Positions 19,160 through 39,219 of a DNA stretch of 64,000 nt are shown piece by piece (the first letter of the stretch is position 1; every line of letters begins with the position of its first letter). The notes below the pieces were generated by a model. It was not told the DNA's origin and ran no database searches. It saw nothing but the letters and a program-made list of their open reading frames with translations. The translations under genes and the position numbers were made by a program. Source of the DNA: Pseudomonadota bacterium (GTDB lineage: Bacteria; Pseudomonadota; Gammaproteobacteria; Burkholderiales; Burkholderiaceae_C); NCBI GenBank assembly GCA_018241895.1, contig JAFECX010000077.1, positions 1 to 64,000 of the forward strand, read 5' to 3'.

Positions 19160-20486
<1,327 letters not shown>

Positions 20487-20490
<4 letters not shown>

Positions 20491-20969: not shown

Positions 20970-21030
20970 CGAAATTCTCCTGAGTGTTGAGACGTCCGCA
21001 TTCAGGCGCTGTGGCGACCAGAAGCCAAGG

Positions 21031-21438: not shown

Positions 21439-21616
21439 GGGATGACCTCCAGTTTCTGGATGGGATCGGTTGCAAGAGATGCCGGTTTGCGCGATGCCTT
21501 TCGCGCTTGGCACCGGCGGGCCCTACGTGGCATCGGCGGAGTCGGACGGACTGAATGCACGCCCGTCCGAGGCGGGCGGCGGATATGCCACGACTGCCCG
21601 CCACCTGCCTCACGCT

Positions 21617-22462: not shown

Positions 22463-22484
22463 GGTCGGGGTCTCCGTTGGCGTG

Positions 22485-22787
22485 TCAGGGATGGAAGGGG
22501 TAACGGGCATCACCCGGGCTGACGGTGGTGCTGATCCACAGGCCGGGGCCGACCTGCTTTTTGATGCCCACCAGCGCGCCAGGGCGGTGCGGGCGGTTCG
22601 TGGCCTGCCAGCCGTGCTGGGCAACGGGCGTGTTGGCCGACGCGCCGGTCATCACCGCAACGGCCTGCGCCAAATCGGTCCCGGCCCACGGCGAGGTGGC
22701 GTCGAGTGATGGGGCAGCGGCAGGCGCTTGAAGGCCCAGCGCCTTACGCCAGACCGGATGCAGATGGGGCAGATTGAAATGGCTCAC
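22485..22787 (-). CDS. Small island protein of unknown function
   Basis: A 100-residue protein starting at GTG 22787, with AAGGAG at a good distance. It reads SHFNLPHLHPVWRKALGL at the start and has a central ATSPWAGTDLAQAVAVMTG and a C-terminal GALVGIKKQVGPGLWISTTV segment. It is the first gene of the minus-strand run that leads to the recombinase. No known family is recognised. Confidence 0.6.
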   Translation of the reverse strand: MSHFNLPHLHPVWRKALGLQAPAAAPSLDATSPWAGTDLAQAVAVMTGASANTPVAQHGWQATNRPHRPGALVGIKKQVGPGLWISTTVSPGDARYPFHP

Positions 22788-23175
22788 GGCGATCTCCTTT
22801 TGGCGGTTGAGATGGGCAACACACACAGGAGAAATGGTCGCAAAACAGAGACTTTCTGGCGATCTGGACGCGGCGGGTTTGCGCGTGTTTTGGCGGGTGT
22901 CAGCTCCCTACAGCGCCCGTGAGCGCACTCAGGCCTGCTGCGGATAGACGGTTTTGCAGCGATGCTTGAGGCCATCTGTTGCGGATCCGCATCCGAAGCC
23001 ATGAGCAACGTTGAGCAATGCGTGGGCTGTTTGTCCTTGGTTTCGACGATTCGGCCATTTCGGGTGTTTGCCGCCACGGCGCGAACCCCGAAGAATCTGT
23101 TGCAACGCTCGCTGCACAACCTCCACCGATGGACGGGGAGGGATGCCAAGGGCACCACGAATTGAAAGGAAACCC
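22788..23175. other. Divergent promoter region of the island
   Basis: About 390 bases between the leftward recombinase operon and the rightward replication genes. It holds a 12-bp perfect palindrome TGCGGATCCGCA at 22980-22991 and a GAGCAACGTTGAGCAATG duplication at about 23002. Both operons must start here, so this is the likely control region of the element. No gene is convincing. Confidence 0.5.
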
Positions 23176-23394
23176 ATGACCACCATCCAACATCCGAGCC
23201 TGCTCACGCCACGCCAGTTGGCCGCCCGCTGGGGCATGAGCGAGAAGACTCTCGAACGCTGGCGCACGCTCGGCACGGGTCCGACGTACCTCAAGCTCGG
23301 CAGCCGCGTGATGTATCCGCTTGCCTCCATTGCGCAGCACGAGCAGGGCCGGATGCGCCGCTGCACGGCAGGCCAAGAACTGCCTCAGTACTGA
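23176..23394 (+). CDS. Small AlpA/excisionase-type HTH DNA-binding protein
   Basis: A 72-residue protein starting at ATG 23176, with AAAGGAAA upstream. It is a compact winged-helix of the HTH_17/MerR-like excisionase type: LTPRQLAARWGMSEKTLERWRTLGTGPTYLKLGSRVMYPLASI. Proteins like this act as excisionases or as activators at island promoters. It is eight bases upstream of the primase-helicase gene and likely co-transcribed, so it may couple excision with replication. Confidence 0.85.
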   Translation: MTTIQHPSLLTPRQLAARWGMSEKTLERWRTLGTGPTYLKLGSRVMYPLASIAQHEQGRMRRCTAGQELPQY

Positions 23395-23402
23395 CCCTGC
23401 GG

Positions 23403-25535
23403 ATGTCCTCGATGCAGACGACTTTGACCATCGGCACAGCAGCAGCCCCATTCCCGTGGTTCGATTTCAACGATGCGGTTGCCGCCCTGCCGCGCCTGGA
23501 GAAGGAAGACATCCGCGCCCGGCTGCTCGACCAATTGGAATCAGCGCTGGCGTACCTGCTGCCGCGCGGCAAGCGACGCGGCGCGCAATTTGTCGTCGGC
23601 AATCTGCAGGGCGATGCGGGCGACAGCCTTGTCGTTGATCTCGATGGCGCAAAGCGGGGCCTGTGGCTGGACTTCGCCACCGGCGAATCCGGTGATGCGC
23701 TCGCGCTGTGGGCCGCCGTGTGCGGCTTCATCCTTCCGCACCAGTTCGATGCACTGCTGGAGGACATCGGCCACTGGCTGATCGTGCCGCGCCTCGCCGT
23801 GCCGATCACGGTGTCGTCGAGCGCCCCGCGCGATGATCTTGGCCCAGCCACCGCCAAGTGGAACTACCACGATGCCAACGGCAAGCTGCTGGCCTGCGTG
23901 TACCGTTACGACCCGCCCGGTGGCAAGCAGTACCGACCCTGGGATGTGGCATCCCGCTCGATGTGCATGCCCGAGCCGCGCCCACTCTACAACCTGCCTG
24001 CCATCGCCGCCAGCAACGATGTTGTGCTGGTCGAGGGCGAGAAATGTGCCGACGCCTTGATGCACCTCGGCATCACGACCACTACCGCGATGGGTGGCGC
24101 ATCCACCGCCGTCGACAAGACCGACTGGACACCGCTGACCGGCAAGACAGTCGTCGTGTGGCCTGACCACGACGAGACTGGAGCACGTTACGCGGATGTC
24201 GTGATCGTGAAGCTGCAGCAGATCGGTGCGACGGTGCGGCGCGTGACCATACCCGAGGAAAAGCCCAAGAAGTGGGATGCCGCCGATGCCGTGGCCCAGG
24301 GCTTCGACGTGGTGTCGCTTCTCGCGACATCATCCCCGGTGACCGATGCCGTCCAGCCCATGGACATCACCCGCTGGCGTGCAGTAGATCGCTTCATTGG
24401 TGAGCCGCAGGCTCGGCGCTGGCTGGTCGAGGGTGTGTTCCCGCAAGCACAGGCTTCCCTGATCGCCGCTGCAGGCGGTGTCGGCAAATCCTTCCTGCTC
24501 TTGGCGCTGGCCCGCGAGGTCGCGGCCTTCGACGGCACCTGGGCCAACGCCCCGAAGGTGTTTGGAGGGGCGCTGACCGGACAAGGTGTGGCGATCTATA
24601 TCACCGCCGAGGACGATGCTATCGAAGTGCACAACCGCCTGAACGCCCTGGGCCCGATTCCCGACCGACTCTACGTGTTGCCGTTGCCCGATGCCGGTGG
24701 CGCGCAACCGCTGTTTGCACCCGATCCGGCCACGCGCGGCCCGGCCACCACGGCAGCGTGGCACGAACTGGAGCGGCAACTGAGGGCGATGACCGGGCTG
24801 CGACTGGTGGTGCTCGATCCCCTGCAGCCGCTGTGCGCGCTCGATCTGAACGTGCCGGAGAACGCCCAGTTGGTCTGCTCGCGCTTGGCGGCGCTGGCCG
24901 CCCGCACAGGCGCATCGGTGATCGTGTCGCACCACTTCGCCAAACGTGAAGCGACCACGCCAGAGCAGGCGCGTGAAGCAATTCGCGGTACGGGCGGACT
25001 GGTGGACGGCGTGCGGTCGGTGTACGCGCTGTGGCAGCCCAAGGAAGAGCAGGCTCGCACGATCTGCAAGAGTTTGGGCGAACCCTTCGAGCGCGGGCGC
25101 GTGGTGCTGGGCGGCGTGGTCAAGGCCAATGGGCAGGCCGACCTGCACGTCACCACCTTCCTGCGCGATGCACGCGGGCTGCTGGTGGATCGCAGCCAGG
25201 ACGTTCGGCGCACGGCGCAGCCGGACATTGAACTGCTCCCTGAATTGAAAGCCGCCATCGCCCGCGCGGCTGCCGCTGGCCAGCCCTACACCAAGACCGG
25301 CGGCAACGGCATCTACGAGCGCAGACACGAGTTGCCTGAAGCCTTCCAGACCGTGGGCAAGCACCGATTGGCCGAGTGGGTATCGATGCTGCTCGACCGC
25401 GAGGAGCTGGTGATGGCGATGGCAGAGGGCTCCAAGCTGGTGAAATGGCTCGACGTGCCCGATGGGCCGGTCGCCAACGGCGCGGCGCAGTTCGTGACCG
25501 GGCACCTGGGCCGCTCGTCCGCTGGCCGACGATGA
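23403..25535 (+). CDS. Primase-helicase (Toprim plus RepA-like AAA ATPase)
   Basis: A 710-residue protein. The middle of the N-terminal half has a Toprim core: DVVLVEGEKCADAL with its glutamate at about 202-215, and VVVWPDHDETG with its DxD at about 246-256. The second half is a RecA/RepA-type AAA_25 ATPase with Walker A AAGGVGKS (Lys362), a LRLVVLDPLQPLC Walker B at about 468-480 and a VIVSHHFAK sensor. This combination is typical of replication proteins of plasmids, satellites and ICEs. The start may be ATG 23403 or ATG 23412. Directly downstream lies a repeat-dense non-coding region, which suits an origin. Confidence 0.88.
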   Translation: MSSMQTTLTIGTAAAPFPWFDFNDAVAALPRLEKEDIRARLLDQLESALAYLLPRGKRRGAQFVVGNLQGDAGDSLVVDLDGAKRGLWLDFATGESGDALALWAAVCGFILPHQFDALLEDIGHWLIVPRLAVPITVSSSAPRDDLGPATAKWNYHDANGKLLACVYRYDPPGGKQYRPWDVASRSMCMPEPRPLYNLPAIAASNDVVLVEGEKCADALMHLGITTTTAMGGASTAVDKTDWTPLTGKTVVVWPDHDETGARYADVVIVKLQQIGATVRRVTIPEEKPKKWDAADAVAQGFDVVSLLATSSPVTDAVQPMDITRWRAVDRFIGEPQARRWLVEGVFPQAQASLIAAAGGVGKSFLLLALAREVAAFDGTWANAPKVFGGALTGQGVAIYITAEDDAIEVHNRLNALGPIPDRLYVLPLPDAGGAQPLFAPDPATRGPATTAAWHELERQLRAMTGLRLVVLDPLQPLCALDLNVPENAQLVCSRLAALAARTGASVIVSHHFAKREATTPEQAREAIRGTGGLVDGVRSVYALWQPKEEQARTICKSLGEPFERGRVVLGGVVKANGQADLHVTTFLRDARGLLVDRSQDVRRTAQPDIELLPELKAAIARAAAAGQPYTKTGGNGIYERRHELPEAFQTVGKHRLAEWVSMLLDREELVMAMAEGSKLVKWLDVPDGPVANGAAQFVTGHLGRSSAGRR

Positions 25536-25598
25536 GCATCGAGGGAGGTAAGCATTCCCGATGCTCACCCTCTCTTTAGAGAGGAATGGCCGGGAAGC

Positions 25599-25773
25599 GG
25601 GAACGATTAGAAAGATCGTTGATTTACAAGAGAATTTGCTGCTGAAATCGTTCCCGGTCGGCTCCTGGGAACGATTGAGCCCGGGAACAATTTACCGCCG
25701 CACCAGCGCTGGGTTTAATTGTTCCCACCCCCGCAATCGTTCCCGGTCGGGAACCGGGAAGCCGGGAACGATT
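25599..25773. repeat. Seven inverted and direct GGGAACRATT iterons
   Basis: Plus-strand copies start at 25599, 25667, 25683 and 25764, minus-strand copies at 25646, 25717 and 25735. They form three face-to-face pairs: 25646/25667, 25683/25717 (the A variant GGGAACAATT on both arms) and 25735/25764. The matching variants inside each pair show that the pairs evolved as dyads. Confidence 0.88.
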
Positions 25774-25787
25774 TGCGGCGTCCGCCG

Positions 25788-26034
25788 CAGGCGAAATGGG
25801 CCCTTCCTGGCGATATTCCAATACGGGGGGCGCGAGCGCGGCGCTTCGCTACCGTCCGGGCGCGAACCAAGGTTCGCACGGTTCGCAGGTACGCACCCCG
25901 GAAGGTTCGCCTCGGCTTGGGTGGTAACCGGTAACCTGCGGTGGTAACCCGGTTCGGTAGCCTGTCACTGGCGAGATGCCGGGCCTGCGCCCCCCGTATC
26001 GGTTTTTCTGAAGGAAGGGCCCATTTCACCTGTG
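25788..26034. repeat. Long inverted repeat (two arms of about 50 bp)
   Basis: The left arm at 25788-25837 and the right arm at 25985-26034 are inverted copies at roughly 80% identity. Both contain GAAATGGGCCCTTCC and ATACGGGGGGCGC. The 147 bases between them contain GCGAACC-AA-GGTTCGC (25862-25877), further GGTTCGC copies at 25880 and 25904, and GGTGGTAACC at 25920 and 25940. Confidence 0.85.
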
Positions 26035-26371
26035 GCCGTCACGCAGCCGGGCAAAACGGTGATCGACGCGAACGTAGTGAGGACGCGGGCTTGCGGGCAT
26101 TTGAGCGCCCGACAGCGCCCAACCGGTGAGCGTGGCGCAGTCCTGCCGCGAAAACGGCCAGTGTGGGAAATCCAGTGCTGGCGCGGGTTAGCAGCGAAAA
26201 CGAGGCATGAAACGGCAAAAACGGCCACCGAGGGGGCGCTACGGCAAGAGTACGCAAGACACCCCGTCTGCACGGTGCAAGCAGCCGTAACGCCTTGTCA
26301 AACCTAGGTTTTGAAGGGTACGCAAGGGTATCCAAGAACTGGACACCCAGGCAGCGCAATCAAGAAGCAGA

Positions 26372-26737
26372 TCACGCTGCCTCTTGCTCGTCGGTGATTG
26401 CGCAGTGAATCACGAAGCCCGTGAGGTAGACCATCCCGCGCGGGATGCCGTAGTCAAAGCTTGTCCGGCTGCCAATCGTCCAGCCCATCCACTTCTGCGT
26501 GGCGTCGTCGATGGCATCCTTGAGGGATTTGCCGACGTAGAGGCCGTTGTGGACTTCGTCCGCGTAGTGGCGGCCAAACCGGCTGTCGAGGAAGGCGCGG
26601 ATGTTGTCGAAGTCTTCGCCCGTGGCGCTGGCGATGGCGCGCATGGCCAAGAGCCACGCGATGCTGGCGTGGCCGCCCATCGTGCCCCAGAAGCCCCAGC
26701 CTTCGTTGCGGGTGGCGGGGGTGTTGGTGTTGCTCAT
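26372..26737 (-). CDS. Island protein of unknown function
   Basis: A 121-residue protein behind a good GAAGGAG site. The N-terminus is Asn/Thr-rich, followed by GWGFWGTMGGHASIAWLLAMRAI and a conserved-looking region FLDSRFGRHYADEVHNGL. One moderately hydrophobic helix near residue 105 (GMVYLTGFVIHCAI) might touch a membrane. It is the last gene of the three-gene minus-strand run with DUF3489 and the DUF6900-like gene. No function is assigned. Confidence 0.68.
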   Translation of the reverse strand: MSNTNTPATRNEGWGFWGTMGGHASIAWLLAMRAIASATGEDFDNIRAFLDSRFGRHYADEVHNGLYVGKSLKDAIDDATQKWMGWTIGSRTSFDYGIPRGMVYLTGFVIHCAITDEQEAA

Positions 26738-26791
26738 TTCGTGCTCCTTCGTGGCTGCGTTGCGATGCTTGTAGTAACGCGCTGCGCGGGC

Positions 26792-26821
26792 CGGAAGCCA
26801 AGCTCTTTCTGGCCTCCGGCT
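26792..26821 (-). repeat. Inter-gene leader hairpin, copy 1
   Basis: CCGGAAGCCA and TGGCCTCCGG (one mismatch) flank a loop with the word CTTTC, ten bases after the DUF3489 stop codon and 55 bases before the next start. It shares sequence with the leaders of the two genes upstream (GGAAGCCAAGC and the ACGCGCTG block). Confidence 0.7.
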
Positions 26822-26830
26822 CGATCTTTC

Positions 26831-27400
26831 TCAAGCAACGCGGTACACGCGCTCGCCACCCTGGGCCTTGTCGGAAGTGATGATCAGGCCGAGCTTTTTC
26901 TTGAAGGCTCCGGCGAAGGTGCCGCGCACCGTGTGCTGCTGCCAGCCGGTGACGTCGCAAATCTGCCGCACGGTCGCGCCCTCAGGGCGCTGGAGCATCC
27001 GCACGACTTCGGCCTGCTTGCTGTTCTCGCGGGTGCGGGGCTTGGCCCACGTTGCTTCGGCGGCAATGACGGCGGCCTCCAGCTCGGTGTCATTCGGCAC
27101 GGGCGGTGCGCCTTCGGCGTTGGCGATGATCTGATCGAGCTTGGCCTCGAACGCGGAGGTCGATTGCGCTACTTCGGGGCGTTTCATGCCCAGAGCGTCG
27201 TAGCCCTCGGCGGCGACGCGCCAGCCCTCGCCATCGGGCGTGATCAGGGCGCGGTTGAACATCCCGGCGAGCACCTTCTTGCGCGCGCCGCCTTTGATGT
27301 TGTCGGGGAGCCATTCGATCTTGCCCGCGCCGGTGTTGATGGCCTTGGCAAGGATGGCGTGCTGGGCCGGGGTGAGTTGGGTGATGGGGGTGGTGGTCAT
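26831..27400 (-). CDS. DUF3489 family protein
   Basis: A 189-residue protein. The N-terminal 70 residues (TQLTPAQHAILAKAINTGAGKIEWLPDNIKGGARKKVL) and a C-terminal winged-helix-like DUF3489 domain (KQAEVVRMLQRPEGATVRQICDVTGWQQHTVRGTFAGAFKKKLGL) match the family. The C-terminal domain looks like a DNA-binding HTH. The family is common in alpha- and betaproteobacterial phages and islands; its role is unknown, a regulator being the simplest reading. A CAAGGAGC site precedes its ATG. Confidence 0.86.
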   Translation of the reverse strand: MTTTPITQLTPAQHAILAKAINTGAGKIEWLPDNIKGGARKKVLAGMFNRALITPDGEGWRVAAEGYDALGMKRPEVAQSTSAFEAKLDQIIANAEGAPPVPNDTELEAAVIAAEATWAKPRTRENSKQAEVVRMLQRPEGATVRQICDVTGWQQHTVRGTFAGAFKKKLGLIITSDKAQGGERVYRVA

Positions 27401-27456
27401 TTACTGCTCCTTGGCAAGTGGTGGATGGCGATGTGATGAACGCGCTGTTGGCCAGT

Positions 27457-27483
27457 GAAGCCAAGCGCTTTCTGCTTGGCTTC
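27457..27483 (-). repeat. Inter-gene leader hairpin, copy 2
   Basis: A perfect 10-bp stem, GAAGCCAAGC with GCTTGGCTTC, and a 7-base loop lies 12 bases after the DUF6900-like stop codon. The block GATGAACGCGCTGTT next to it recurs at 27738-27752 upstream of the DUF6900-like gene, where only one stem arm (GGAAGCCAAGC) remains. Confidence 0.85.
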
Positions 27484-27495
27484 ATGGCTTGGCGA

Positions 27496-27702
27496 TCAGT
27501 CCTTGGCGATTTCTGCTTCCGATGCCTTCGGCATCGCTGCACCCAGTTCGACGCCTTCCTTGAAGGCGGCTTCCAGCGCGTCCCGGATGCACCACACCGC
27601 CGTGTCGTGGAAGTCCAGGCTGTCGGCGTGGCGGGTTTGCAGGGTGTCGATGCCGAGATGCTTCTGGGCGATCAGGGTGAGGATGGTGTCGATCTGGTTC
27701 AT
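27496..27702 (-). CDS. Small DUF6900-like protein
   Basis: A 68-residue protein starting at ATG 27702 with GAAAGGAAAA upstream. The sequence IAQKHLGIDTLQTRHADSLDFHDTAVWCIRDALEAAFKEG resembles the DUF6900 pattern, a small helical family found with DUF3489 genes in islands. Function is unknown. It is the promoter-proximal gene of the leftward run and divergent from the HTH regulator. Confidence 0.68.
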   Translation of the reverse strand: MNQIDTILTLIAQKHLGIDTLQTRHADSLDFHDTAVWCIRDALEAAFKEGVELGAAMPKASEAEIAKD

Positions 27703-27851
27703 GGTGTTTTCCTTTCGGGATGTGGTTGGCGTGACGTGATGAACGCGCTGTTCCCGATGGAAGCCAAGCAAAAGATCTCCGTTTTTCCCTGCCGTTGCCT
27801 GTGCCACACTGATAAGATTCAGGTTTCACCACTTCCATCAGGACAACCGGG

Positions 27852-28175
27852 ATGAAACGCTGCGTTGTCGGGATTCACCGCCCCGATGCACCCAAGCCTG
27901 TCATCACGGGTCGTGACGCCCCGACGGTCTGGTTTCCGTCCATGCCCACGCTGGCGGCAGTGCTGTCCGAGGACAACCGGGCCTTGCTGCGGCTGATCCA
28001 CGACCAGCGCCCGCCGTCTCTGACGGCGCTGGCCGAGCTCACTGGGCGGCAGGTGCCAAACCTTTCTCGAACGCTGAGGATGATGGAGAGCTACGGTTTG
28101 GTGACGCTGAAAAAAAGCACACGCGAGATTGCGCCGGTGGCGCTCGCGACCCGTTTCAAAATTTTGATCGACTGA
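27852..28175 (+). CDS. MarR-like winged-helix regulator
   Basis: A 107-residue protein with a C-terminal winged helix (NRALLRLIHDQRPPSLTALAELTGRQVPNLSRTLRMMESYGLVTLKKS), the compact MarR/HVO_A0114-like type often found upstream of restriction or toxin operons. It ends 14 bases before hsdR, so it is probably the first gene of the restriction operon and an autoregulator. It is divergent from the DUF6900-like gene; the 150-base region between them must hold both promoters. Confidence 0.82.
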   Translation: MKRCVVGIHRPDAPKPVITGRDAPTVWFPSMPTLAAVLSEDNRALLRLIHDQRPPSLTALAELTGRQVPNLSRTLRMMESYGLVTLKKSTREIAPVALATRFKILID

Positions 28176-28188
28176 GGGAGGGATGGCG

Positions 28189-30582
28189 ATGCGAGACGGC
28201 GTGATCACCGAAGCAGACACCTGCCGCGAATTCGTCACGCCACGACTGGTCGAGGCAGGCTGGGGCAATGCGCCCTGCGCCATCGGCGAGCAGCGCAGCT
28301 TCACCAACGGCCGCATCATCGTCGCGGGCGGCAAGGTGCGGCGCGGCCAGCAAAAGCGCGCCGACTACCTGCTGTACTACCGCCGCGACTACCCGCTGGC
28401 CGTGGTCGAAGCCAAGGAGGTGGGGCTGCCCGCCGAAACCGGCGTGCAACAAGCGCGCGAATACGCCGAAATCCTCGGCCTCAAATTCGCCTACGCCACC
28501 AACGGCCACCGCATCATCGAGATCGACTACACCACCGGCACCGAGCGCGAGGTGGAACGCTATGCCACGCCGGAAGAACTGTTCGCCCGCCTGACCGCTG
28601 GGGCGCACCTGCCACAAGCCTCCACACCGCACCTGCTCGAACCCTTCAACCTGGTCTCAGGCAAGGTGCCACGCTACTACCAGCGCATCGCCATCCAGCG
28701 CGTGATCGAGGCTGTTCTGCTGGGCCAGGCGCGCATCCTCGCCACGCTGGCCACCGGCACGGGCAAGACCAATGTGGCCTTCCAGGTTTGCTGGAAATTG
28801 TGGAACAGCCGCTGGAACCGCACCGGTGAACACCGCCGCCCCAAAATCCTGTTCCTTGCCGACCGCAACATCCTGGTCGATGACCCGATGGCCAAGATGT
28901 TCGCGCCCTTTGGCGACGCCCGGCACAAGATCAGCGGCGGCGACACCAGCCAGAGCCGGGACATGTACTTCGGCATCTATCAGGCGCTGACCACGGCCAG
29001 CGCCGACGTGTTCCGCCAGTACCGCCCGGATTTTTTCGATCTCATCATCATCGACGAATGCCATCGTGGCTCCAGCCGCGACGAAAGCGCCTGGCGCGTG
29101 GTGCTCGACTATTTCGCGCCCGCCGTGCAGTTCGGCATGACGGCCACGCCGCTGCGCGAGGAATCGCGCGACAGCTACGACTACTTCGGCAACCCCGTCT
29201 ATACCTACAGCCTGCGCCAAGGCATCGAGGATGGCTTTCTCGCGCCGTATCGCGTGCACCGCGTCATCACCACGGTGGATGCCGCTGGCTGGCGGCCCAG
29301 CAAGGACGAACTCGACCGCTTTGGCCGCGAGGTGCCCGACGACGAATACCAGACCAAGGACTTCGAGCGCGTCGTCGCGCTGCGCGCCCGCACCAGGGCG
29401 ATGGCCCGCCACCTGACCGACCTGCTCAAAGGCACCGACCGCTTCGCCAAGACACTGGTGTTCTGCGTCGATCAGGAGCACGCCGCCGAAATGCGGCAGG
29501 AGCTGATCAACCTCAACAGCGATCTGGTCAAACAGTACCCGAACTACGTTTGCCGCGTCACCGCCGACGGGGGCGACATTGGCCTGGCGCATCTGGCGGA
29601 TTTTCAGGACGTGGACAAGACCACGCCCGTCATTCTCACCACCTCGCAGTTGCTGACCACCGGCGTCGATGCCGAAATGGTCAAGAACGTGGTGCTGGCC
29701 CGCGTGGTCGGCTCGCGCTCCGAGTTCAAGCAGATCATCGGGCGCGGCACCCGGCTCAAGGTCGACTACGGCAAGGAATACTTCAACATCATCGACTTCA
29801 CCGGCACCGCCACCCAGCACTTCGCCGACCCCGACTTCGACGGCGACCCGGCACGCATCGAGGTGGTGAGAGTCGATGAAGAAGGCGAAGTGGTAGAGAT
29901 CAACACCGAGGAAACGCCGAACACGACAGAGGGTCACGAATCCGAAGACGAATCAGGTGATGGCACCGGCAATGGCGAGATCCTTGGCGATCCACCGCCG
30001 CCCGAGCCGCGCAAGTTCTACATTGACGGCGGCGAAGTGGAAGTCATCGGCCATCTGGTCTATGATCTCGACACCGACGGCAAGAAGCTGCAGGTCGTCA
30101 AGTACACCGACTACTCGGGCCGCGCCCTGCGCACTCTCTACCCCACGCGCGAGGCGCTGCAATCCAGGTGGGCCAACCCGGACACCCGCGCCGAGGTGCT
30201 GCGCGAGCTGACCGAGCGCGGCATCAGCTTCGAGGAACTGGCCTCCAGCAGCGAACAGCCCGATGCCGACCCCTTCGACCTGCTGTGCCACCTGGCCTGG
30301 AACGCGCCGCTCCTCACGCGCCGCCAGCGTGCCGAAGTCGCCAAGCGCCAAACCCAAGACTTGTTCGCGCAGTACGGCGACACGGCGCGGGAAATCCTCA
30401 CGCTGCTGCTCGACCGCTACATCGAGCGCGGCATCATTCAATTCAACGCGCTGTCCGAGCTGATGAAGGTACAACCCTTCGACCGCTACGGCTCTCCTGC
30501 CGAGATCGCCACCCGCCACTTCGGCGGCGTGCCCGCGATGCGCGAGGCCGTCACGCGGCTACAAACCGCGATCTATCAATAA
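28189..30582 (+). CDS. hsdR: Type I restriction endonuclease, R subunit (EcoEI-like)
   Basis: A 797-residue protein with ATG 28189 (GGAGGG at good spacing; ATG 28183 is too close to it). The nuclease core RADYLLYYRRDYPLAVVEAKE gives Asp59, Glu74 and Lys76 of a PD-ExK site. The translocase has Walker A ATGTGKT (Lys193), DECH at 289 and GMTATP, with motif VI in QIIGRGTRL. The EcoEI-type C-terminal domain follows an acidic linker (about 565-600). With HsdM and HsdS it cleaves unmodified DNA after ATP-driven translocation. It lies first in the order R-M-(nuclease)-S. Confidence 0.94.
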   Translation: MRDGVITEADTCREFVTPRLVEAGWGNAPCAIGEQRSFTNGRIIVAGGKVRRGQQKRADYLLYYRRDYPLAVVEAKEVGLPAETGVQQAREYAEILGLKFAYATNGHRIIEIDYTTGTEREVERYATPEELFARLTAGAHLPQASTPHLLEPFNLVSGKVPRYYQRIAIQRVIEAVLLGQARILATLATGTGKTNVAFQVCWKLWNSRWNRTGEHRRPKILFLADRNILVDDPMAKMFAPFGDARHKISGGDTSQSRDMYFGIYQALTTASADVFRQYRPDFFDLIIIDECHRGSSRDESAWRVVLDYFAPAVQFGMTATPLREESRDSYDYFGNPVYTYSLRQGIEDGFLAPYRVHRVITTVDAAGWRPSKDELDRFGREVPDDEYQTKDFERVVALRARTRAMARHLTDLLKGTDRFAKTLVFCVDQEHAAEMRQELINLNSDLVKQYPNYVCRVTADGGDIGLAHLADFQDVDKTTPVILTTSQLLTTGVDAEMVKNVVLARVVGSRSEFKQIIGRGTRLKVDYGKEYFNIIDFTGTATQHFADPDFDGDPARIEVVRVDEEGEVVEINTEETPNTTEGHESEDESGDGTGNGEILGDPPPPEPRKFYIDGGEVEVIGHLVYDLDTDGKKLQVVKYTDYSGRALRTLYPTREALQSRWANPDTRAEVLRELTERGISFEELASSSEQPDADPFDLLCHLAWNAPLLTRRQRAEVAKRQTQDLFAQYGDTAREILTLLLDRYIERGIIQFNALSELMKVQPFDRYGSPAEIATRHFGGVPAMREAVTRLQTAIYQ

Positions 30583-30609
30583 CAGCGCCCACAAGAAGAA
30601 CCCGAACCG

Positions 30610-32178
30610 ATGGCCAAAGCCAAAAGCAAAACCCCACTCACCACCCGCGACAACCGCTCCGCACTGATCGGCAGCGCGCGCAAGATTCTGCGCAAGGACA
30701 AGGGCCTCAACGGCGACGTGGATCGCCTGCCGCTGCTCACCTGGGTGATGTTCCTCAAATTCCTCGACGACCTGGAGCTCAAGCACGCGCAGGAAGCCGA
30801 ACTCGACGGCAAGCGCTACCAGCCCATCATCGAGCAGCCCTACCGCTGGCGCGACTGGGCCGCGCGCGAAGACGGCATCACCGGTGACGAGCTGCTGGCC
30901 TTCATTGGCCAGGAGCACACCCACCGCGCCGACGGCAGCCTGGGGCAAGGTCTGTTTGCCTACCTGCGCGGCCTGGCGGGCGAAGGCGAAAAAGGCAGCC
31001 AGCGCGAAGTCATCGCCAACGTGTTCAAGGGCGTGCAAAACCGCATGGTCAGCGGCTACCTGCTGCGCGACATCGTCAACAAGGTGGGTGGTATCCACTT
31101 CAACGCCAGCGAGGAAATCCACACCCTCTCGCACCTCTACGAATCCATGCTGCGCGAAATGCGCGACGCGGCGGGCGATTCCGGCGAGTTCTACACCCCA
31201 CGCCCGGTGGTGCGCTTCATGGTGCAGGTGACCAATCCGCACCTGGGCGACACCGTGCTCGACCCCGCCTGCGGCACCGGCGGTTTTCTGGTGGAAGCCT
31301 TCGACCACCTCCACGCCCAGGTCACCACCACCGAGCAGCGCCGCAGCCTGCAACGCGACACGCTCGCCGGGCAAGAAGCCAAGCCGCTGCCCTACATGCT
31401 GGCGCAGATGAACCTGCTGCTGCACGGGCTGGAAGCGCCGCAGATCGCCTACGGCAACACGCTGGAGCGGCGCATCAGCGAAATCGGCCACGCCGAGCGC
31501 GTGGACGTCATCCTCACCAACCCGCCCTTCGGCGGCGAGGAAGAGGCGGGCATCAAGGCCAACTTCCCGCCCAATATGCAGACGGCGGAAACCGCGCTGC
31601 TGTTCCTGCAATACATCATGCGCAAGCTGCGCGTGGCCGGTGCGCCGGTGAAAGGCAAGAAGACGGTGGAGCGCGGTGGCCGCGCGGCGGTGGTGGTGCC
31701 CAACGGCACCCTGTTCGGCGACGGCGTGGCCGCTGCCATCAAGGCCGAGCTGCTCAAGGAGTTCAACCTGCACACGATCGTGCGCCTGCCGCAAGGCGTG
31801 TTCGCACCCTACACGGACATCCCGGCCAACCTGCTGTTCTTCGAACGCGGGGGGCCGACGCAAAGCATCTGGTATTACGAGCTGCCGCTACCCGAAGGCC
31901 GCAAAAAGTACAGCAAGACCGCGCCCTTGCAGTTCGACGAGTTCGCGCCGGTGTTGGCGTGGTGGAGCCAGCGCGAGGAAGGCCCGCAGGCGTGGCAAGT
32001 CAGCGCCGCTGAAATTGCCGCCAGCAACTACAACCTCGACCGCAAGAACCCCAATGCCAAGGCCGGTCTGGAGCACGCCGACCCGAAGGATTTGATCGCC
32101 TCCATGCGCGGGCACGAGGCGGAGGTGATGCGGCTGCTGGGCGAGATTGAAGCCTTGGTAAATGAGGTGCAGGGATGA
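30610..32178 (+). CDS. hsdM: Type I modification methyltransferase, M subunit
   Basis: A 522-residue N6-adenine methyltransferase. An N-terminal helical HsdM_N domain (about 10-140) is followed by the SAM motif LDPACGTGGFLVEAF (from Asp218) and the catalytic NPPF motif at 304-307 (DVILTNPPFGGEE). The C-terminus ends in a coiled coil for contact with HsdS. It methylates the sequence chosen by HsdS. It starts 27 bases after hsdR, and its stop overlaps the next start as ATGA. Confidence 0.95.
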   Translation: MAKAKSKTPLTTRDNRSALIGSARKILRKDKGLNGDVDRLPLLTWVMFLKFLDDLELKHAQEAELDGKRYQPIIEQPYRWRDWAAREDGITGDELLAFIGQEHTHRADGSLGQGLFAYLRGLAGEGEKGSQREVIANVFKGVQNRMVSGYLLRDIVNKVGGIHFNASEEIHTLSHLYESMLREMRDAAGDSGEFYTPRPVVRFMVQVTNPHLGDTVLDPACGTGGFLVEAFDHLHAQVTTTEQRRSLQRDTLAGQEAKPLPYMLAQMNLLLHGLEAPQIAYGNTLERRISEIGHAERVDVILTNPPFGGEEEAGIKANFPPNMQTAETALLFLQYIMRKLRVAGAPVKGKKTVERGGRAAVVVPNGTLFGDGVAAAIKAELLKEFNLHTIVRLPQGVFAPYTDIPANLLFFERGGPTQSIWYYELPLPEGRKKYSKTAPLQFDEFAPVLAWWSQREEGPQAWQVSAAEIAASNYNLDRKNPNAKAGLEHADPKDLIASMRGHEAEVMRLLGEIEALVNEVQG

Positions 32179-33379
32179 CCAACCGGGCAAGTGCCAAGGC
32201 CGTCAAAACCACGAAGGACACGAAGGGCACCAAGGTGGCGGAAGTGGGCTACGACGACGTTCACGGCAGCATCGTTGCTCTGCTGGAATCGGCCCGCCGC
32301 GCCGCCGCGCCGCCGCGCGCAGCGTCAATGCGCTGATGACGGCCAGCTACTGGGAGATCGGTCGGCGCATTGTGGAGTTCGAGCAGGGCGGGCAGGAGCG
32401 GGCAGCCCGTGGCCAGCAGTTGCTGCAACGCTTGTCCGCCGATTTGGCGACACGCTTTGGGCGCGGCTTCAGCGTGGACAACCTGGAGCAGATGCGCCTG
32501 TTTTATCTGGCCTACACGCCCCAGTGGATTTCCGAGACGCTGTCTCGGAATAATTCCGCCGTCCACATAGCCGGAAAATCCGAGACAGCGTCTCGGAATA
32601 TCGGCCTGGAACAACTGGCGCTGGTTCTGCCGCTATCGTGGTCACACTATGTGCATCTGGTACGTCGCACCCGATCGGTTGAAGAGCGCGAGTTCTATGA
32701 AACCGAAGCCCTGCGTGGCGGCTGGACCGTGCGCCAACTTGCCCGCCAGATCGGCACGCAGTTCTACACCCGCACCCTGCTGTCGAAGAACAAGCGCGCC
32801 ATGCTGGAAAAGGGCAGCCAGCCTCGGCCCGGCGACCTCATCACGCCCGACGAAGCTGTCAAAGACCCCTACGTCCTGGAGTTCCGCAACCTCAAGGATG
32901 AATACTCAGAATCGGAACTGGAAGACGCACTGATTCACCGGCTGGAAGACTTCCTGCTGGAGCTGGGCGGAGACTTTACTTTTGTGGGCCGCCAGCGCCG
33001 CCTGCGCTTGGACGAAAGCTGGTTTCGTGTCGATCTGCTGTTCTTCCACCGCCGCCTGCGCTGCCTCGTCCTCATCGACCTCAAGCTCAACGAACTGTCA
33101 CATGCCGACGTGGGGCAGATGCACATGTACTGCAACTATGCCCGTGCGCACTGGACGCTGGAGGGCGAAAACCCACCCGTCGGCCTGATCCTGTGCACTC
33201 GCGCCAAATCCGCGCTGGCCCGCTATGCGCTGGAGGGGTTGCCCAACAAGGTGATGGCCGCCGAGTACAAAACGGCGCTTCCAGATGTCCAACTGCTGCA
33301 AGACGAATTGGAAAAAACGCGGCGAGAGTTTGAAGCGCGACGACTTGTGCGCGGCAGCGATGCGGAGAGTGAGATATGA
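32175..33379 (+). pseudogene. yhcG: YhcG-type PDDEXK nuclease (DUF1016), frameshifted
   Basis: A DUF1016/YhcG nuclease: the N-terminal block MTASYWEIGRRIVEFEQGGQERA, the middle LSWSHYVHLVRRTRSVEEREFYETEALRGGW, and the C-terminal PDDEXK core ESWFRVDLLFFHRRLRCLVLIDLKLNELSHADVGQM. Translation from ATG 32175, coupled to hsdM by ATGA, reads into the right protein but stops at 32334. The break is an exact tandem duplication of GCCGCCGC (32301-32308 and 32309-32316). With one copy the frame runs through to 33379 and gives SARRAAARSVNAL, the expected family N-terminus. A shorter product could start at ATG 32336. It overlaps hsdS by ATGA. Confidence 0.86.
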
Positions 33380-34545
33380 AGGCGTGGCCCGAAGTCGCCT
33401 TGGGTGAATTGCTCCAGCGCTCAGATGCAGCAGCTGTGATTAATCCGGCTGCCGAGTACCACGAAGTCACCATCAAGCTGTGGGGTAAAGGGGTCATCAG
33501 CAGAGGCAAGGTTTCTGGCAGTGATGTCGTTGCTGTTCGTCGCGTTGTGCGGGCCAATCAGCTGATCTTGTCCAAAATTGACGCTCGCAACGGTGCAATC
33601 GGCTTGGTTCCGCCAGAACTGGACGGAGCCATCGTCAGCAACGATTTCCCGTCCTTTGATTTCCGCGACCTGCGCCGGTGTGACCCGGCATTCATGGGTT
33701 GGCTTGTCCGTTCAATGCCGTTCGTAGCACTTTGCAAAGCCGCGAGCGAGGGAACGACCAATCGGGTTCGCATCAAGGAAGATCGGTTTCTTGCCAAGCA
33801 GATTGCGCTCCCGCCCCTCGCCGAACAACAAACCCTCGTCGCCCGCCTCGACGCGCTGGCCGAGAAAACCCGGCAGCTCGAAGCGCATCTGGAGGCCGCC
33901 GAGCGCGATGCCGAACACCTGCTGGCCCTGCGCTTCCGCGATGCCATTGCCAATGCACCGATGCGGCCGATGGCGGAAGTTGCGCCGCTGGTGCGGCGTG
34001 AGGTGCAGATCACCTTGGGCGGAAGCTATCCCGAGTTGGGCATCCGCTCCTTCGGCAAAGGTACGTTCCACAAGCCGCCCTTGTCCGGTGCGGAAGTCGG
34101 CACAAAACGCCTGTATCGCATCGAACCTGGCGACCTGCTGTTTTCCAACGTGTTCGCGTGGGAGGGTGCCATTGCCATTGCACAGCCCGAGGACACCGGG
34201 CGCTTCGGTTCGCACCGCTTCATGACTTGCCAAGCAAACCCTACGCAAACTTCGGCAGAATTTTTGCGCTACTACTTCCTGACCGACGACGGCCTGCTGA
34301 AAATCGGCGAAGCCTCACCCGGCGGCGCGGGCCGCAACCGCACGCTGGGGCAAGAAAAGCTGATGGCCATCGAAGTCCCCATCCCACCCTTGCTCATCCG
34401 GCAATCCTTCAACCGCCTGCAAACCGAAGTCGCCGCGCTCAAGGCCAAACACGCCGCCATCCGCACCGCCAACGCCGCCCTGCTGCCCGCAACGCTGGAG
34501 CGGGTGTTTGCCCAGGAATCCAAAGGAGACGACCGTGGCCGATGA
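33376..34545 (+). CDS. hsdS: Type I restriction specificity subunit
   Basis: A 389-residue HsdS with two target-recognition domains (about 5-145 and 200-345), each followed by a conserved coiled-coil spacer: LPPLAEQQTLVARLDALAEKTRQLEAHLEAAERDAEHL and PIPPLLIRQSFNRLQTEVAALKAKHAAIR. It sets the bipartite DNA target for both methylation and cleavage. It overlaps yhcG at the start (ATGA) and the following gene by 11 bases. The recognition sequence cannot be read from the protein. Confidence 0.93.
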   Translation: MKAWPEVALGELLQRSDAAAVINPAAEYHEVTIKLWGKGVISRGKVSGSDVVAVRRVVRANQLILSKIDARNGAIGLVPPELDGAIVSNDFPSFDFRDLRRCDPAFMGWLVRSMPFVALCKAASEGTTNRVRIKEDRFLAKQIALPPLAEQQTLVARLDALAEKTRQLEAHLEAAERDAEHLLALRFRDAIANAPMRPMAEVAPLVRREVQITLGGSYPELGIRSFGKGTFHKPPLSGAEVGTKRLYRIEPGDLLFSNVFAWEGAIAIAQPEDTGRFGSHRFMTCQANPTQTSAEFLRYYFLTDDGLLKIGEASPGGAGRNRTLGQEKLMAIEVPIPPLLIRQSFNRLQTEVAALKAKHAAIRTANAALLPATLERVFAQESKGDDRGR

Positions 34546-34978
34546 TGCACTCGCCCAAGCCGATGCCGATGTGCTGCTGCGCATGGAGAAAGTACCTGCG
34601 TCTACGGCCGCGTTCGACTTTCCCGGCCTTGGCGGGCGCATCGAGGTGCCGCTGGTATCGCGCGATAAACGCGAGCAGTTTTCGCTGGACATCAACCGCA
34701 AGCGCATCGCCTTGACCACGGGTTATCAGGCGCGTGGCCGGAGGGTGGTTGTGCTGGCACGCCTCGATTTCGCCGCACCCCACCGCAACCCGGATGGCAC
34801 CGAAGTCGGCGTGCCGCATTTGCACCTGTATCGTGAGGGCTACGGCGACAAGTGGGCCGTTGAGGTTCCGGCGGACATCTTGCACAATCCGGATGATGTG
34901 TGGCAGGTGCTGCACGATTTCATGCGCTACTGCGGCGTGGTCGAGCAGCCGAACATCACACGGGGGCTGTTCGCATGA
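34535..34978 (+). CDS. DUF6978-like protein
   Basis: A 147-residue protein. GTG 34535 has AAGGAG at ideal distance and lies inside the end of hsdS. The core reads FDFPGLGGRIEVPLVSRDKREQFSLDINRKRIALTTGYQARGRRVVVLARLDF, then GVPHLHLYREGYGDKWAVEVP; this matches the DUF6978 pattern as I remember it. Such proteins occur next to DUF1828 proteins in defence islands. Function is unknown. It overlaps the DUF1828 gene by ATGA. Confidence 0.72.
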   Translation: MADDALAQADADVLLRMEKVPASTAAFDFPGLGGRIEVPLVSRDKREQFSLDINRKRIALTTGYQARGRRVVVLARLDFAAPHRNPDGTEVGVPHLHLYREGYGDKWAVEVPADILHNPDDVWQVLHDFMRYCGVVEQPNITRGLFA

Positions 34979-35736
34979 GCACGACCAATGATCTGATCAG
35001 CCGCTATTACGACTGGCTCAAGGCCAAGACCAACTGGCGCGAGATCAACGACTGGGTGGAAATCACCACGCCGTATCTGGATCGTCACAACGACTGCATC
35101 CAGATATACCTGAAGCGGCAGGACGGCGAATGGGTGCTGACCGATGACGGCTACACTCTGGCCGATCTGGCGCAGTCTGGGTGCGAGGTCGACACGCCGC
35201 GCCGCAAGGCACTGCTGGCGACAACGCTCAACGGCTTTGGTGTGCAGCAGAATTTTGAGGCGCTGGAAGTCAAGGCCACCGAGGAGAACTTCCCGCTGCG
35301 CAAGCACAGCCTGTTGCAGGCCATTCTCGCGGTCAACGATCTTTTCTACGTTGCACGCGCCAACGTCGAGAGCTTCTTCTTCGAGGACGTGGCCTTGTGG
35401 CTGGACGATGCCGACGTGCGCTACACCTCGCGCGTGAACTTCGTTGGGCGCAGCCACTACAACCACCAGTTCGATTTCGTGGTGCCGAAATCCAAGCGTG
35501 CGCCAGAGCGGATTCTTCGCGTCATCAACAATGCGAACAAAGACACCGCCCAGAGCACCGCCTTCGCGTGGCTGGACACCAAGGAGGTACGGCCTTCGGA
35601 TTCGCAGGCATTCGCCATCCTGAACGACCGCGACCGACAGCTTGGCGATGCCGTGCAGGATGCTCTGCGCAGCTACGACATCACGCCGATTGCGTGGAGC
35701 AAGCGGGAAGAATTCAGGGAACGGCTGGCGGCATGA
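34975..35736 (+). CDS. DUF1828/DUF1829 protein
   Basis: A 253-residue protein with the DUF1828 N-terminal domain (TPYLDRHNDCIQIYLKRQDGEWVLTDDGYTLADL) and the DUF1829 C-terminal domain (FDFVVPKSKRAPERILRVINNANKDTAQSTAFAWLDTKEVRPSDSQAFAILND). The C-terminal half has the spacing of a degenerate restriction-endonuclease-like fold, but no clear catalytic triad is visible. It is coupled to the DUF6978-like gene and follows hsdS in one transcript, so the two may form an accessory pair of the restriction operon or a separate defence module. Confidence 0.8.
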   Translation: MSTTNDLISRYYDWLKAKTNWREINDWVEITTPYLDRHNDCIQIYLKRQDGEWVLTDDGYTLADLAQSGCEVDTPRRKALLATTLNGFGVQQNFEALEVKATEENFPLRKHSLLQAILAVNDLFYVARANVESFFFEDVALWLDDADVRYTSRVNFVGRSHYNHQFDFVVPKSKRAPERILRVINNANKDTAQSTAFAWLDTKEVRPSDSQAFAILNDRDRQLGDAVQDALRSYDITPIAWSKREEFRERLAA

Positions 35737-35775
35737 GGGCAGGCCGATCAAAAATGCGCGAAACCGTCTCCAACA

Positions 35776-38151
35776 ATGATCGATACGGATGAGTTGACGG
35801 CGCTGCGCGCCGAGAACGCCCGCCTGATCGCGCTGCTGGAAGCGCAAGGCATCGAGTGGCGGTTGCCGCAGCCGATCACCTGGGTGGCCCGGGAGCAAGA
35901 GTCCTCCCGGCTATCCACCGCCGAGAAGGTCGCCCTTTTCCGCCGCCTGTTTCGGGGCCGAACCGATGTCTATCCGATTCGCTGGGAAAACAAAACCACG
36001 GGCAAGGCCGGTTACGCCCCGGCCTGTGCCAACGAGTGGCGCGCCGGTGTCTGCGAGAAGCCGCGCATCAAGTGTGGCGAATGCAGTCAGCGGCTGCTGA
36101 TCCCGCTGTCCGACGCCGTGGTCTATGACCATCTGGCCGGTGGGCACACGGTTGGGGTGTACCCGCTGCTGGAGGACGACACGTGCTACTTCCTCGCGGC
36201 TGACTTCGATGAAACCGATTGGCGGGACGATGCCCGCGCATTCATGCAGTCCTGTGACGAACTCGGCGTGCCCGCCGCGTTGGAGATTTCGCGCTCCGGT
36301 CAGGGCGCGCATGCCTGGGTGTTTTTCGCCAGTCGGGTGTCGGCCCGTGATGCCCGCCGCCTGGGCACGGCCATCATCAGTCACACCTGCGCGCGCACGC
36401 GGCAACTGAAGCTGGAGTCCTACGACAGGCTTTTCCCAAACCAAGACACGATGCCCAAAGGCGGCTTCGGCAACCTGATTGCCTTGCCGCTGCAGAAGGG
36501 ACCGCGCGAGAGAGGTTGCAGCGTGTTCGTCGACGCCGATCTGCGCCCCTATCCGGATCAATGGGCATTCCTGGCTTCCATCCAGCCGATGGCCGCGCAC
36601 GACATCGAGCCGACCATCCTGCGGGCCACAGGTGGTGTCCACCCGCTGGACGTTACCTTCATCGATGACGAAGACCTGGCCACGCCGTGGAAGCGAGAAA
36701 GCACGGCGTTGAAGATGTTGACGGGTCCCATGCCCCGGTCACTGACGGTGATCCTGGCCAACCTGATCTATTTCGAGAAGGCCCAACTGCCGCAGGCGCT
36801 GGCCAACCGCCTGATTCGGCTGGCAGCTTTCCAGAACCCCGAGTTCTACAAGGCTCAGGCGATGCGGATGTCGGTGTGGGACAAGCCGCGCATCATCGGC
36901 TGCGCTGAAAACTTTCCGCAGCACATCGCGCTGCCGCGCGGGTGTTTCGACGCCGCGCGCGAACTGTTGGCGGATAACGACATTCGTCTCGACTTGCGCG
37001 ACGAGCGCCACGCCGGAGTACCCATCGCCGTCGGCTTCAGCGGCACGCTGCGTCCCGACCAGGAAGCCGCCGTGGCGGCGATGCTGAGGCACGATGACGG
37101 TGTGCTGTGCGCGCCAACCGCCTTCGGCAAAACGGTGACGGCCGCAGCGCTCATCGCCCGGCGCGGTGTCAACACGTTGGTTCTGATGCATCGCACGGAA
37201 TTGCTCAAGCAGTGGCAGACGCGCCTTGCCGCATTTCTGGATGCAGGTAAGGAGGTGATCGGCATCATCGGTGGCGGCAAGACCAAGCCCACCGGCAAAG
37301 TTGATATTGCCGTGATGCAGTCGCTTTCTCGACAAGGCGAAGTCGATGTGCTGGTCGAGAACTACGGGCAAGTGATCGTGGATGAATGCCATCACATCGG
37401 TGCGGCGTCCTTCGATGCCATCCTGCGGCGCACAAAGGCAAAGTATGTGCTGGGCCTGACGGCGACACCGATCCGTCGCGATGGGCAACAGCCCATCATC
37501 TTCATGCAGTGCGGGCCGATCCGGCACAAGGCGGCGCAACCACTGGATGCGCCGCGCGATCTGGCGGTGACGCCGCAGTTCATCGAATCACCGATCGCTC
37601 TGCTGCCGGAGGCGGGCATTCAGGATGTGTTCCGGCATCTGGCACAAGACGCGGCCCGAACGGCAGCCATCGCCAGCGCGATCACCGACGCTTTCCAGCA
37701 AGGCCGCAAGGTGCTGGCGTTGACCGAACGCACCGAGCACATCGAGGCGATTCAAACTGCGTTGATGGGTCAAGTTCCAGAGCCGTTTGTGTTGCACGGG
37801 AGAATGGCAAAATAGCAGCGCGCCGCGCTGATCGCCGCGCTCGATGCGCTGCCTCCCGATGCGCCGCGCGTGTTGCTGGCCACCGGCAAGCTGGTCGGCG
37901 AAGGCTTCGACCATCCGCCGCTGGATACCTTGGTGCTGGCGATGCCCGTCTCGTGGAAGGGCACGCTGCAGCAATACGCCGGGCGCCTGCACCGCGAGCA
38001 CGCCAGCAAGAACGACGTGCGCATCATCGACTTCGTGGACACCGGCCATCCGGCCTTGCTGCGGATGTGGGACAAGCGCCAGCGGGGCTATCGGGCGATG
38101 GGGTATCGCGTCGATTCGGGGGTGCCGTTTGTCGGCAGTCTTGAAGAGTGA
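35776..38151 (+). pseudogene. TOTE-type primase-helicase with an in-frame amber stop
   Basis: The open frame spans 791 codons with a single TAG at codon 680 (37813-37815). The N-terminal part is an archaeo-eukaryotic primase domain of the TOTE conflict-system type: LAADFDE (Asp143, Asp145), ISRSGQGAHAWVFF and FGNLIALPLQK, with four cysteines before it (CANEWRAGVCEKPRIKCGECSQ). The second part is a superfamily II helicase with Walker A APTAFGKT (Lys452), DECH at 536 and LGLTATPIRRDG. The codons after TAG carry on in frame with LLATGKLVGEGFDHPPLDTLVLAMP and QQYAGRLHRE, that is motifs V and VI. The stop therefore removes the last helicase motifs unless it is read through. A short starting coiled coil (LRAENARLIALLEAQGIEW) is also present. 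Confidence 0.85.
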
Positions 38152-38195
38152 TGTCGGCTTGGTAGGGAGCCGGAATCGGCGGGTAGACAGTCTAT

Positions 38196-38210
38196 GCCAC
38201 TCAGTGGCAC
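38196..38210. promoter_or_regulatory. Putative operator of the toxin-antitoxin pair
   Basis: A perfect 7-1-7 palindrome TGCCACT-C-AGTGGCA lies 10 bases before the toxin start. It sits just upstream of CACAATAAG, a possible -10 region, where HigA-type antitoxins usually bind to shut down their own operon. Confidence 0.65.
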
Positions 38211-38220
38211 AATAAGCCCG

Positions 38221-38592
38221 ATGACGCGAGTATTCAAAACGCGCCACTTCCAGCGATGGATGCGTAAGACGGAGCTCACCGATGCCGTCCTGTGCAAGGC
38301 CGTTCAGGAGATGGCAGTTGGCCTGATCGACGCTGACCTCGGCGGCAGCGTGGTGAAGAAACGCATTGGTTTGGCGGGACGCGGCAAGCGTGGCGGTGTG
38401 CGGACGCTGGTCGCCACCAACAAGGGCAACCGCTGGTTCTTCGTGTACGGCTTCGAGAAGAACGAGCGGGCGAACATCAGCGACGAGGAACTCGAAGGCT
38501 TGCAGATCATTGCCGCCGACCTGCTGGCTCGAACAGGCCCGCAATTGGATGAAGCCGTTGCCGACGGCGCTTTGCAGGAGATTTGCCAATGA
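38221..38592 (+). CDS. HigB/RelE-type toxin
   Basis: A 123-residue protein of the RelE/ParE superfamily (DUF1044-like): FKTRHFQRWMRKTELTD at the start, then VKKRIGLAGRGKRGGVRTLVATNKGNRWFFVYGFEKNERANISDEELEGLQIIA. This is the conserved core of HigB-like mRNA-cleaving toxins. It comes before its antitoxin, as usual for HigBA, and overlaps it by ATGA. No strong ribosome site is visible. Confidence 0.87.
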   Translation: MTRVFKTRHFQRWMRKTELTDAVLCKAVQEMAVGLIDADLGGSVVKKRIGLAGRGKRGGVRTLVATNKGNRWFFVYGFEKNERANISDEELEGLQIIAADLLARTGPQLDEAVADGALQEICQ

Positions 38593-38906
38593 CCACCAAG
38601 ACCAAGAGCCGTGTCCTCGAAGCCGTTCACGAAACGGCCAGCGATCTGCATCGTCTGGGTTTCATCGACAAGCGCAAGATGCAGAAATACGACGCACTGT
38701 GCCTGGAGCCGGTGCAGGACTACGACGCCACGAAGGTCAAGGCGCTGCGCGAGAGGCTGCACCTGAGTCAGGCCGTGCTGGCCAGCGTGCTGAACACCAG
38801 CACGTCCACTGTCCGCAAGTGGGAGGTGGGCGACAAACGCCCCAGCGGGCCGTCGCAGAAGCTGCTGGACATCCTCGAACGCAAGGGGCTGGAAGCGGTG
38901 CTTTGA
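38589..38906 (+). CDS. HigA/NadS-type antitoxin, Xre-family HTH
   Basis: A 105-residue protein whose C-terminal half is an Xre-type HTH (LRERLHLSQAVLASVLNTSTSTVRKWEVGDKRPSGPSQKLLDIL). The N-terminal half is the toxin-binding part. It should neutralise the upstream toxin and repress the operon at the palindrome 38196-38210. It is the last gene of the island. Confidence 0.88.
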   Translation: MTTKTKSRVLEAVHETASDLHRLGFIDKRKMQKYDALCLEPVQDYDATKVKALRERLHLSQAVLASVLNTSTSTVRKWEVGDKRPSGPSQKLLDILERKGLEAVL

Positions 38907-38952
38907 GGCAACACCGCTCATTGCCGCTCACGCCCGCTGCGTTACCATTCAA

Positions 38953-39219
38953 GTGGCGGAGACGGAGTTGAACCCGTCAACCATCCGCCACCACTTGCCA
39001 AAATCCCAACCCTTCTCGGTTGGGATTTTTTTGCCCGAAACTCCAGTGCTGGCGCGGGTTCGGGCTGCGCTGCGAAGGACGCCACCGACCCGGGAAGCCC
39101 GGTTTCGGGCGCTTTTCCGGTCTCTGGCGGCCGACAATTATCTCGAGCGCTCGTGTTGCCTCACGGATCCAGGTCGTTGACAAAGACGGAATTGAACCCG
39201 TCAACCGTCCGCCACCACT
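38953..39219. repeat. Pair of 35-bp direct repeats, candidate attachment site
   Basis: Copy A at 38961-38995 and copy B at 39185-39219 match at 33 of 35 positions, 224 bases apart. Both begin GACGGRTTGAACC-type sequence and end CCGCCACCACT. In copy A the core is flanked by GTGGCGGA (38953) and TCCGCCAC (38984), and inside lies GACGG-AGTTGAAC-CCGTC, so it can fold as two stacked stems. On the minus strand it looks like a T-arm (GGGTTCAA) followed by an acceptor arm. Confidence 0.8.
39002..39032 (+). terminator. Rho-independent terminator at the right end of the island
   Basis: A perfect 10-bp stem AATCCCAACC/GGTTGGGATT with a 6-base loop and five more T residues. It ends rightward transcription from the toxin-antitoxin operon before the core genome. 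Confidence 0.9.

Follow-up and report, generated by a model that had tools for sequence, protein, structure and literature searches.

The window analysed here is a stretch of 64,000 nucleotides (positions 1 to 64,000, forward strand, of contig JAFECX010000077.1, GenBank assembly GCA_018241895.1) from a Pseudomonadota bacterium of the Burkholderiaceae_C, and it carries a genomic island with a predicted primase-helicase gene that is interrupted by one in-frame TAG. The features of the gene and of the island are listed in Table 1.

An interrupted primase-helicase gene

An open reading frame (ORF) of 679 codons on the plus strand (35776-37815) is closed by an in-frame TAG at 37813-37815, which is codon 680 and the single internal stop in the translation of 35776-38151. 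Behind the TAG, the frame stays open for 111 sense codons and ends with a TGA at 38149-38151. An initial annotation of this DNA had correctly described the TAG and the open frame beyond it, and its "112 more codons" included the TGA as the 112th. The interruption of the primase-helicase ORF is thereby confirmed, and the interrupted frame is more than a chance ORF because 96 homologues align over codon 680 and none of them (0/96) has a stop there. Copies of the gene were found in 18 of the 81 genomes of congeners (E <= 1e-30), three plasmids, and 6 viral contigs, together with 80 named loci kept out of more than 500.

Ahead of the stop, Pfam analysis revealed the AEP-TOTE (PF22548, 336 bits), DNA_primase_S, ResIII, and DEAD families, with ResIII/DEAD at residues 424–567. 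The gene product thus contains an AEP domain with the catalytic DxD, of which D143 and D145 are invariant. These 2 residues, the Walker A lysine K452, and the D536-E-C-H539 box were found where the initial annotation had placed them and were invariant or nearly so in 22 homologues; helicase motifs V and VI, which it had recognized behind the TAG, are likewise present in the tail. The tail by itself gave no Pfam match. It aligns residue for residue with the C-terminal end of complete homologues, and in an intact homologue Pfam assigns Helicase_C to residues 641–741.

In an AlphaFold2 model of moderate confidence only (predicted local distance difference test, pLDDT, 67; predicted template modelling score, pTM, 0.42), residue 680 is placed at the start of a helix within the second RecA-like lobe (RecA2). 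Because residue 680 falls within this lobe and the strands of residues 698–703, 718–721, and 747–755 and the motif VI helix are modelled downstream of it, the truncated product would lack half of RecA2. The C-terminal superfamily 2 (SF2) helicase is incomplete in the window copy and complete in the homologues; that is to say, the window gene is a member of the family by descent, broken in its own copy.

The AEP part matched the PDB chains 7nqd and 7nqf (TPR-region protein), which we take to be CAPP structures, and the top PADLOC match was the model of the CRISPR-associated PrimPol. Comparison with known systems revealed that (i) the primase domain of the window gene resembles that of TOTE conflict systems (PF22548 AEP-TOTE, 336–340 bits), but no companion of the TPR, OB/cold-shock, or TBP type turned up among the main neighbours at 18.7–39 kb, which were assigned with Pfam (the gene at 34508-34978 with PADLOC only), and none is annotated beside three plasmid homologues; (ii) residues 421–755 align with the XPB/RadD-like SF2 helicases XPBII, RAD25, RadD, and UvsW, whereas the window helicase is fused behind a primase and its RecA2 is interrupted at residue 680; (iii) no CRISPR locus was seen beside the window gene, and its helicase is cut by the TAG; and (iv) a non-CRISPR CAPP_A-type primase-polymerase with a C-terminal helicase has the same architecture as the intact homologues. 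Among non-CRISPR CAPP homologues on mobile elements, primase plus helicase is the commonest architecture (PMC8211822). TOTE stands for TPR, OB, TBP, Effector, according to PMC12458937 (after Aravind et al. 2022). Because no TPR, OB, or TBP gene was found nearby, we do not call the locus a TOTE system. Judged by its sequence, the gene product appears to be an AEP-TOTE-domain protein that fits better with the predicted primase-helicases of the non-CRISPR CAPP type. The "TOTE conflict gene" of the initial annotation therefore holds for the Pfam family of the primase domain and does not hold for the companion genes.

Codon 680 and the origin of the TAG

Residue 680 is Lys in 88 of the 96 homologues, as had been expected, Arg in 3, and Ala, Gln, Met, Thr, or Pro in 1 each; the commonest codons in the codon set are AAG (59) and AAA (25). 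No homologue has a natural C-terminus at this position. The nearest relative is the copy L155 of Paenacidovorax caeni R-24608, with an amino-acid identity of 85%. Its sequence at this point is TCA AAA AAG CAG, vs GCA AAA TAG CAG in the window, and the TAG is thus one base away from the AAG of this relative. The inactivating change is absent from the relatives, as is typical of a young pseudogene.

Selection was assessed from branch ratios of nonsynonymous to synonymous substitution (dN/dS) calculated from three-point distances. Ahead of the stop, the window branch has a dN of 0.037 and a dS of 0.305 (ratio 0.12), and behind the stop, up to codon 740, its ratio is 0.09; these ratios are no higher than those of the sister branch (0.16 and 0.14). 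At 231 near-invariant columns, in which no more than one of about 90 sequences deviates, the window copy has 0 changes, whereas about 157 would be expected if the whole branch had been neutral. Neither measure detected relaxed selection in either part of the gene. Because 0 changes were found against the 157 or so expected, any neutral period would make up at most about 2% of the window branch. The selection data alone fit a very young stop, an error, and a gene that is not inactivated; of the three, a young loss agrees best with the remaining evidence.

We consider it likely that a recent nonsense mutation (AAG in the relatives, TAG here) has interrupted a mobile gene of the non-CRISPR CAPP-helicase or AEP-TOTE type. 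The "fresh loss" offered by the initial annotation is supported by the absence of homologues that end here, by the lack of relaxed selection so far, and by the far more frequent breakage of this family than of two control genes (described below). Translation would stop at codon 680 through release factor 1 (RF1), and the product would keep the N-terminal helix, the AEP primase, and the first RecA-like lobe. Because motifs V and VI and half of the second lobe would be missing, this product is expected from established SF2 biochemistry to lack the coupling between ATP hydrolysis and unwinding, and we infer a loss of function of the window gene.

Several points weigh against a recent nonsense mutation: (i) no second isolate sharing the TAG was found, and an error is thus possible; (ii) the change from A to T is a transversion and not the most frequent type of mutation; (iii) the Ile-GAT and Ala-TGC tRNA genes are apparently missing, probably along with the rRNA operon, and the assembly thus lacks some of the genome; and (iv) the untranslated tail is strongly conserved (dN about 0.04), which would also fit a read-through gene or a tail that was swapped recently along with the adjacent, well-conserved RelE-HTH module. 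The main rival is a sequencing, assembly, or strain-mixture error, with a sense codon as the true codon 680 and an intact gene. Such an error would be in line with the single-base difference in a draft of 249 contigs, with the otherwise unrelaxed selection throughout the gene, and with the want of an independent record of the same TAG. We consider it rather unlikely, since the island genes examined carry no further disruption and the relatives are truly broken often, including by large deletions in cultured isolates, so that a true loss is not improbable.

As an alternative, the initial annotation had suggested that the amber codon may be suppressed. A suppressed or leaky codon would give 2 products, the full-length enzyme and a shorter form of 679 aa in which the primase is joined to half of the helicase. 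The tail is intact and strongly conserved, and CAG directly follows the UAG, a neighbour that partly resembles the leaky CAR-type contexts. Against suppression stand the following results. The search for an amber suppressor recovered 41 tRNA genes above the Rfam cut-off in the genome, none of them with the anticodon CTA (CUA in the tRNA), and RF1 is present and intact. TAG is an ordinary terminator that ends 48 of 310 called genes (about 15%) in 453 kb of sampled sequence (the window and 20 further stretches), including conserved genes such as infC and nuoA. When the TAGs of nine other genes were read through, eight gave Pfam domains, no domain extended across the TAG, and the joined pairs were separate genes: infC and rpmI (IF-3/L35), nuoA and nuoB, IMPDH and ValRS, response regulator and histidine kinase, and others. 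The RNA 3′ of the stop folded no better than shuffled sequences (z about 0.6), which gives no sign of a stimulatory fold. The stop at codon 680 is kept by no homologue, and the in-frame stops of the relatives are scattered over unrelated codons in a mutation-like manner (codons 181, 263, and 410, in place of Trp, Trp, and Glu, and elsewhere). These stops number 6 TAG to 3 TGA over all copies, and codon composition predicts 55–65% TAG; an all-TAG pattern seen early on was gone when more copies were included. The tRNA inventory, RF1, the TAG usage, the RNA folding, and the stop spectrum thus rule against amber suppression, which we regard as highly improbable.

The island at the ssrA 3′ end

Table 1. 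Features of the primase-helicase gene and of the surrounding island in the window.
Feature	Position	Strand	Evidence or remark
Truncated AEP primase / SF2 helicase ORF, 679 aa, ends at TAG	35776..37815	+	translation, Pfam
AEP-TOTE primase domain (Pfam PF22548), residues 50-278	35923..36609	+	336-340 bits
Primase catalytic D143-F-D145	36202..36210	+	invariant in 22 homologues
Walker A APTAFGKT, residues 446-453	37111..37134	+	conserved in homologues
DECH box, residues 536-539	37381..37392	+	invariant in 22 homologues
In-frame TAG, codon 680; Lys in relatives	37813..37815	+	homologue alignment
3′ gene part now untranslated: 111 codons + TGA, rest of RecA2, motifs V and VI	37816..38151	+	homologue alignment, model
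Motif V LVGEGFDHPP, residues 706-715	37891-37920	+	tail translation
Motif VI QYAGRLHR, residues 733-740	37972-37995	+	tail translation
Genomic island, about 20.5 kb, at ssrA 3′ end; primase-helicase at distal end	18461..38993	.	junctions, empty sites, lower GC content at third codon positions (GC3) inside
tmRNA (ssrA), integration target	18088..18460	+	
CCACCA 6-bp direct repeat	18455-18460 and 38988-38993		island ends
Large serine recombinase (Resolvase, Recombinase, Zn ribbon), probable island integrase	19156..20607	-	
Toprim-like + AAA_25 protein, 710 aa, element replication-type	23403-25535		used as control
HsdR, type I restriction, intact	28183..30582	+	
HsdM methylase	30610..32178	+	
DUF1016/YhcG PDDEXK nuclease (PADLOC candidate PDC-S02)	32162..33379	+	
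HsdS specificity subunit	33376..34545	+	
Candidate defence protein PDC-M24A	34508..34978	+	PADLOC only
DUF1828/DUF1829 protein (PDC-M24B), directly upstream of primase-helicase	34978..35736	+	
RelE-family toxin, end module	38221..38592	+	Pfam
HTH antitoxin (HigA/MqsA-like)	38589..38906	+	Pfam

The primase-helicase is the last large gene of the island and lies among genes of the defence type. At the P. caeni loci L155 and L120, the right end runs straight into the sequence found after ssrA in the window, and an empty site, in which ssrA is followed directly by the terminator region, was found in at least five congeners (G048, G009, G012, G119, and G021). The 2 marks of an ssrA-integrated island, a direct repeat of the tRNA-like end and an empty site, were thus both found.

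The RelE/HTH module at the distal end is 91–92% identical in P. caeni and in G004:C140, and in the latter a 3′ scar of the primase-helicase matches beside the module. At P. caeni L120:1785-2955, the module and 28 bp from the 3′ end of the primase-helicase lie between 2 attachment sites, an arrangement that looks as if small island derivatives were stacking at one site. In the window, a 36-nt sequence is present in two copies (94% identical; 38960-38995 and 39184-39219) and, read on the minus strand, resembles the acceptor stem and T-arm of a tRNA or tmRNA; the copies are possibly nested attachment-site remnants.

Recurrent breakage of the gene in relatives

The primase-helicase gene is carried by 26 of 399 genomes of the same order. 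When the copies were classified by hand as broken or intact, 12 of about 24 scorable copies were broken: some had stops or frameshifts, others had internal deletions, and others were reduced to remnants. A strict count without short remnants gave about 7 of 19. By contrast, the 2 control genes in the same genomes were broken in 0–3% of cases (the 60 HsdR matches were free of internal stops, and the 33 Toprim/AAA matches had one), a comparison that covers two genes only, matched mostly at 40–50% identity, where short remnants drop below the threshold. With the strict count and with two doubtful HsdR truncations allowed, the Fisher p value is 0.0005 vs HsdR and 0.002 vs Toprim/AAA.

Broken copies occur in the cultured isolates Plasticicumulans acidivorans DSM 23606, Hydrogenophaga sp. 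A37, Castellaniella defragrans DSM 12141, Thauera butanivorans NBRC 103042, and P. caeni. The sister copy L155 has lost its last 40 codons through a separate deletion of about 153 bp, and the 3′ end of the copy L184 is also lost. In the copy L106 (G025:C94, 30173-31222), an in-frame internal deletion has fused the primase, which ends near residue 261, with the tail, which begins at residue 689, in one open frame, and this tail is 96.7% identical to that of the window copy. In three plasmids and in several chromosomal copies, the primase-helicase start has an 8-bp overlap with a gene for a weakly DUF6155-like protein of about 180 aa (e.g., L032:11439-11984). This possible partner is absent from the window and from many intact copies, and the loss of an upstream partner was therefore rejected as a sign of decay.

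The truncated protein could also be a functional, attenuated primase-only enzyme that has been selected as such. Its AEP part is intact, and helicase parts have been lost in various ways elsewhere (the deletion of about residues 262–688 in G025 and the 3′ ends of L155 and L184). By contrast, many other copies (G260, G073, G234, G009, and G111) have dropped the primase and kept a 3′ remnant, and the decay is thus not directed at one domain; selection for a primase-only enzyme is very unlikely.

With a recent nonsense mutation as the favoured origin of the window TAG, the frequent decay of the family may reflect a cost of the gene, or the lack of any need for it after integration of the element, and selection against a costly gene is a plausible driver. 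We tentatively propose, as a generalization that is possible but less likely to hold than the nonsense mutation itself, that mobile AEP primase-helicase genes are repeatedly and independently inactivated after integration, far more than the neighbouring defence genes, and so would carry a real cost once resident. The break in the window would then have been caught within about 2% of its branch, and the sister element would have lost the same gene end by a different, 3′ deletion.

The survey is a caution against taking amber codons in genes of this kind for recoding. One recent nonsense mutation is an ordinary event, and more can be gained from the repeated decay across the family: the breakage of up to about half of the copies in one order suggests that these enzymes are costly or are useful for a short time only.
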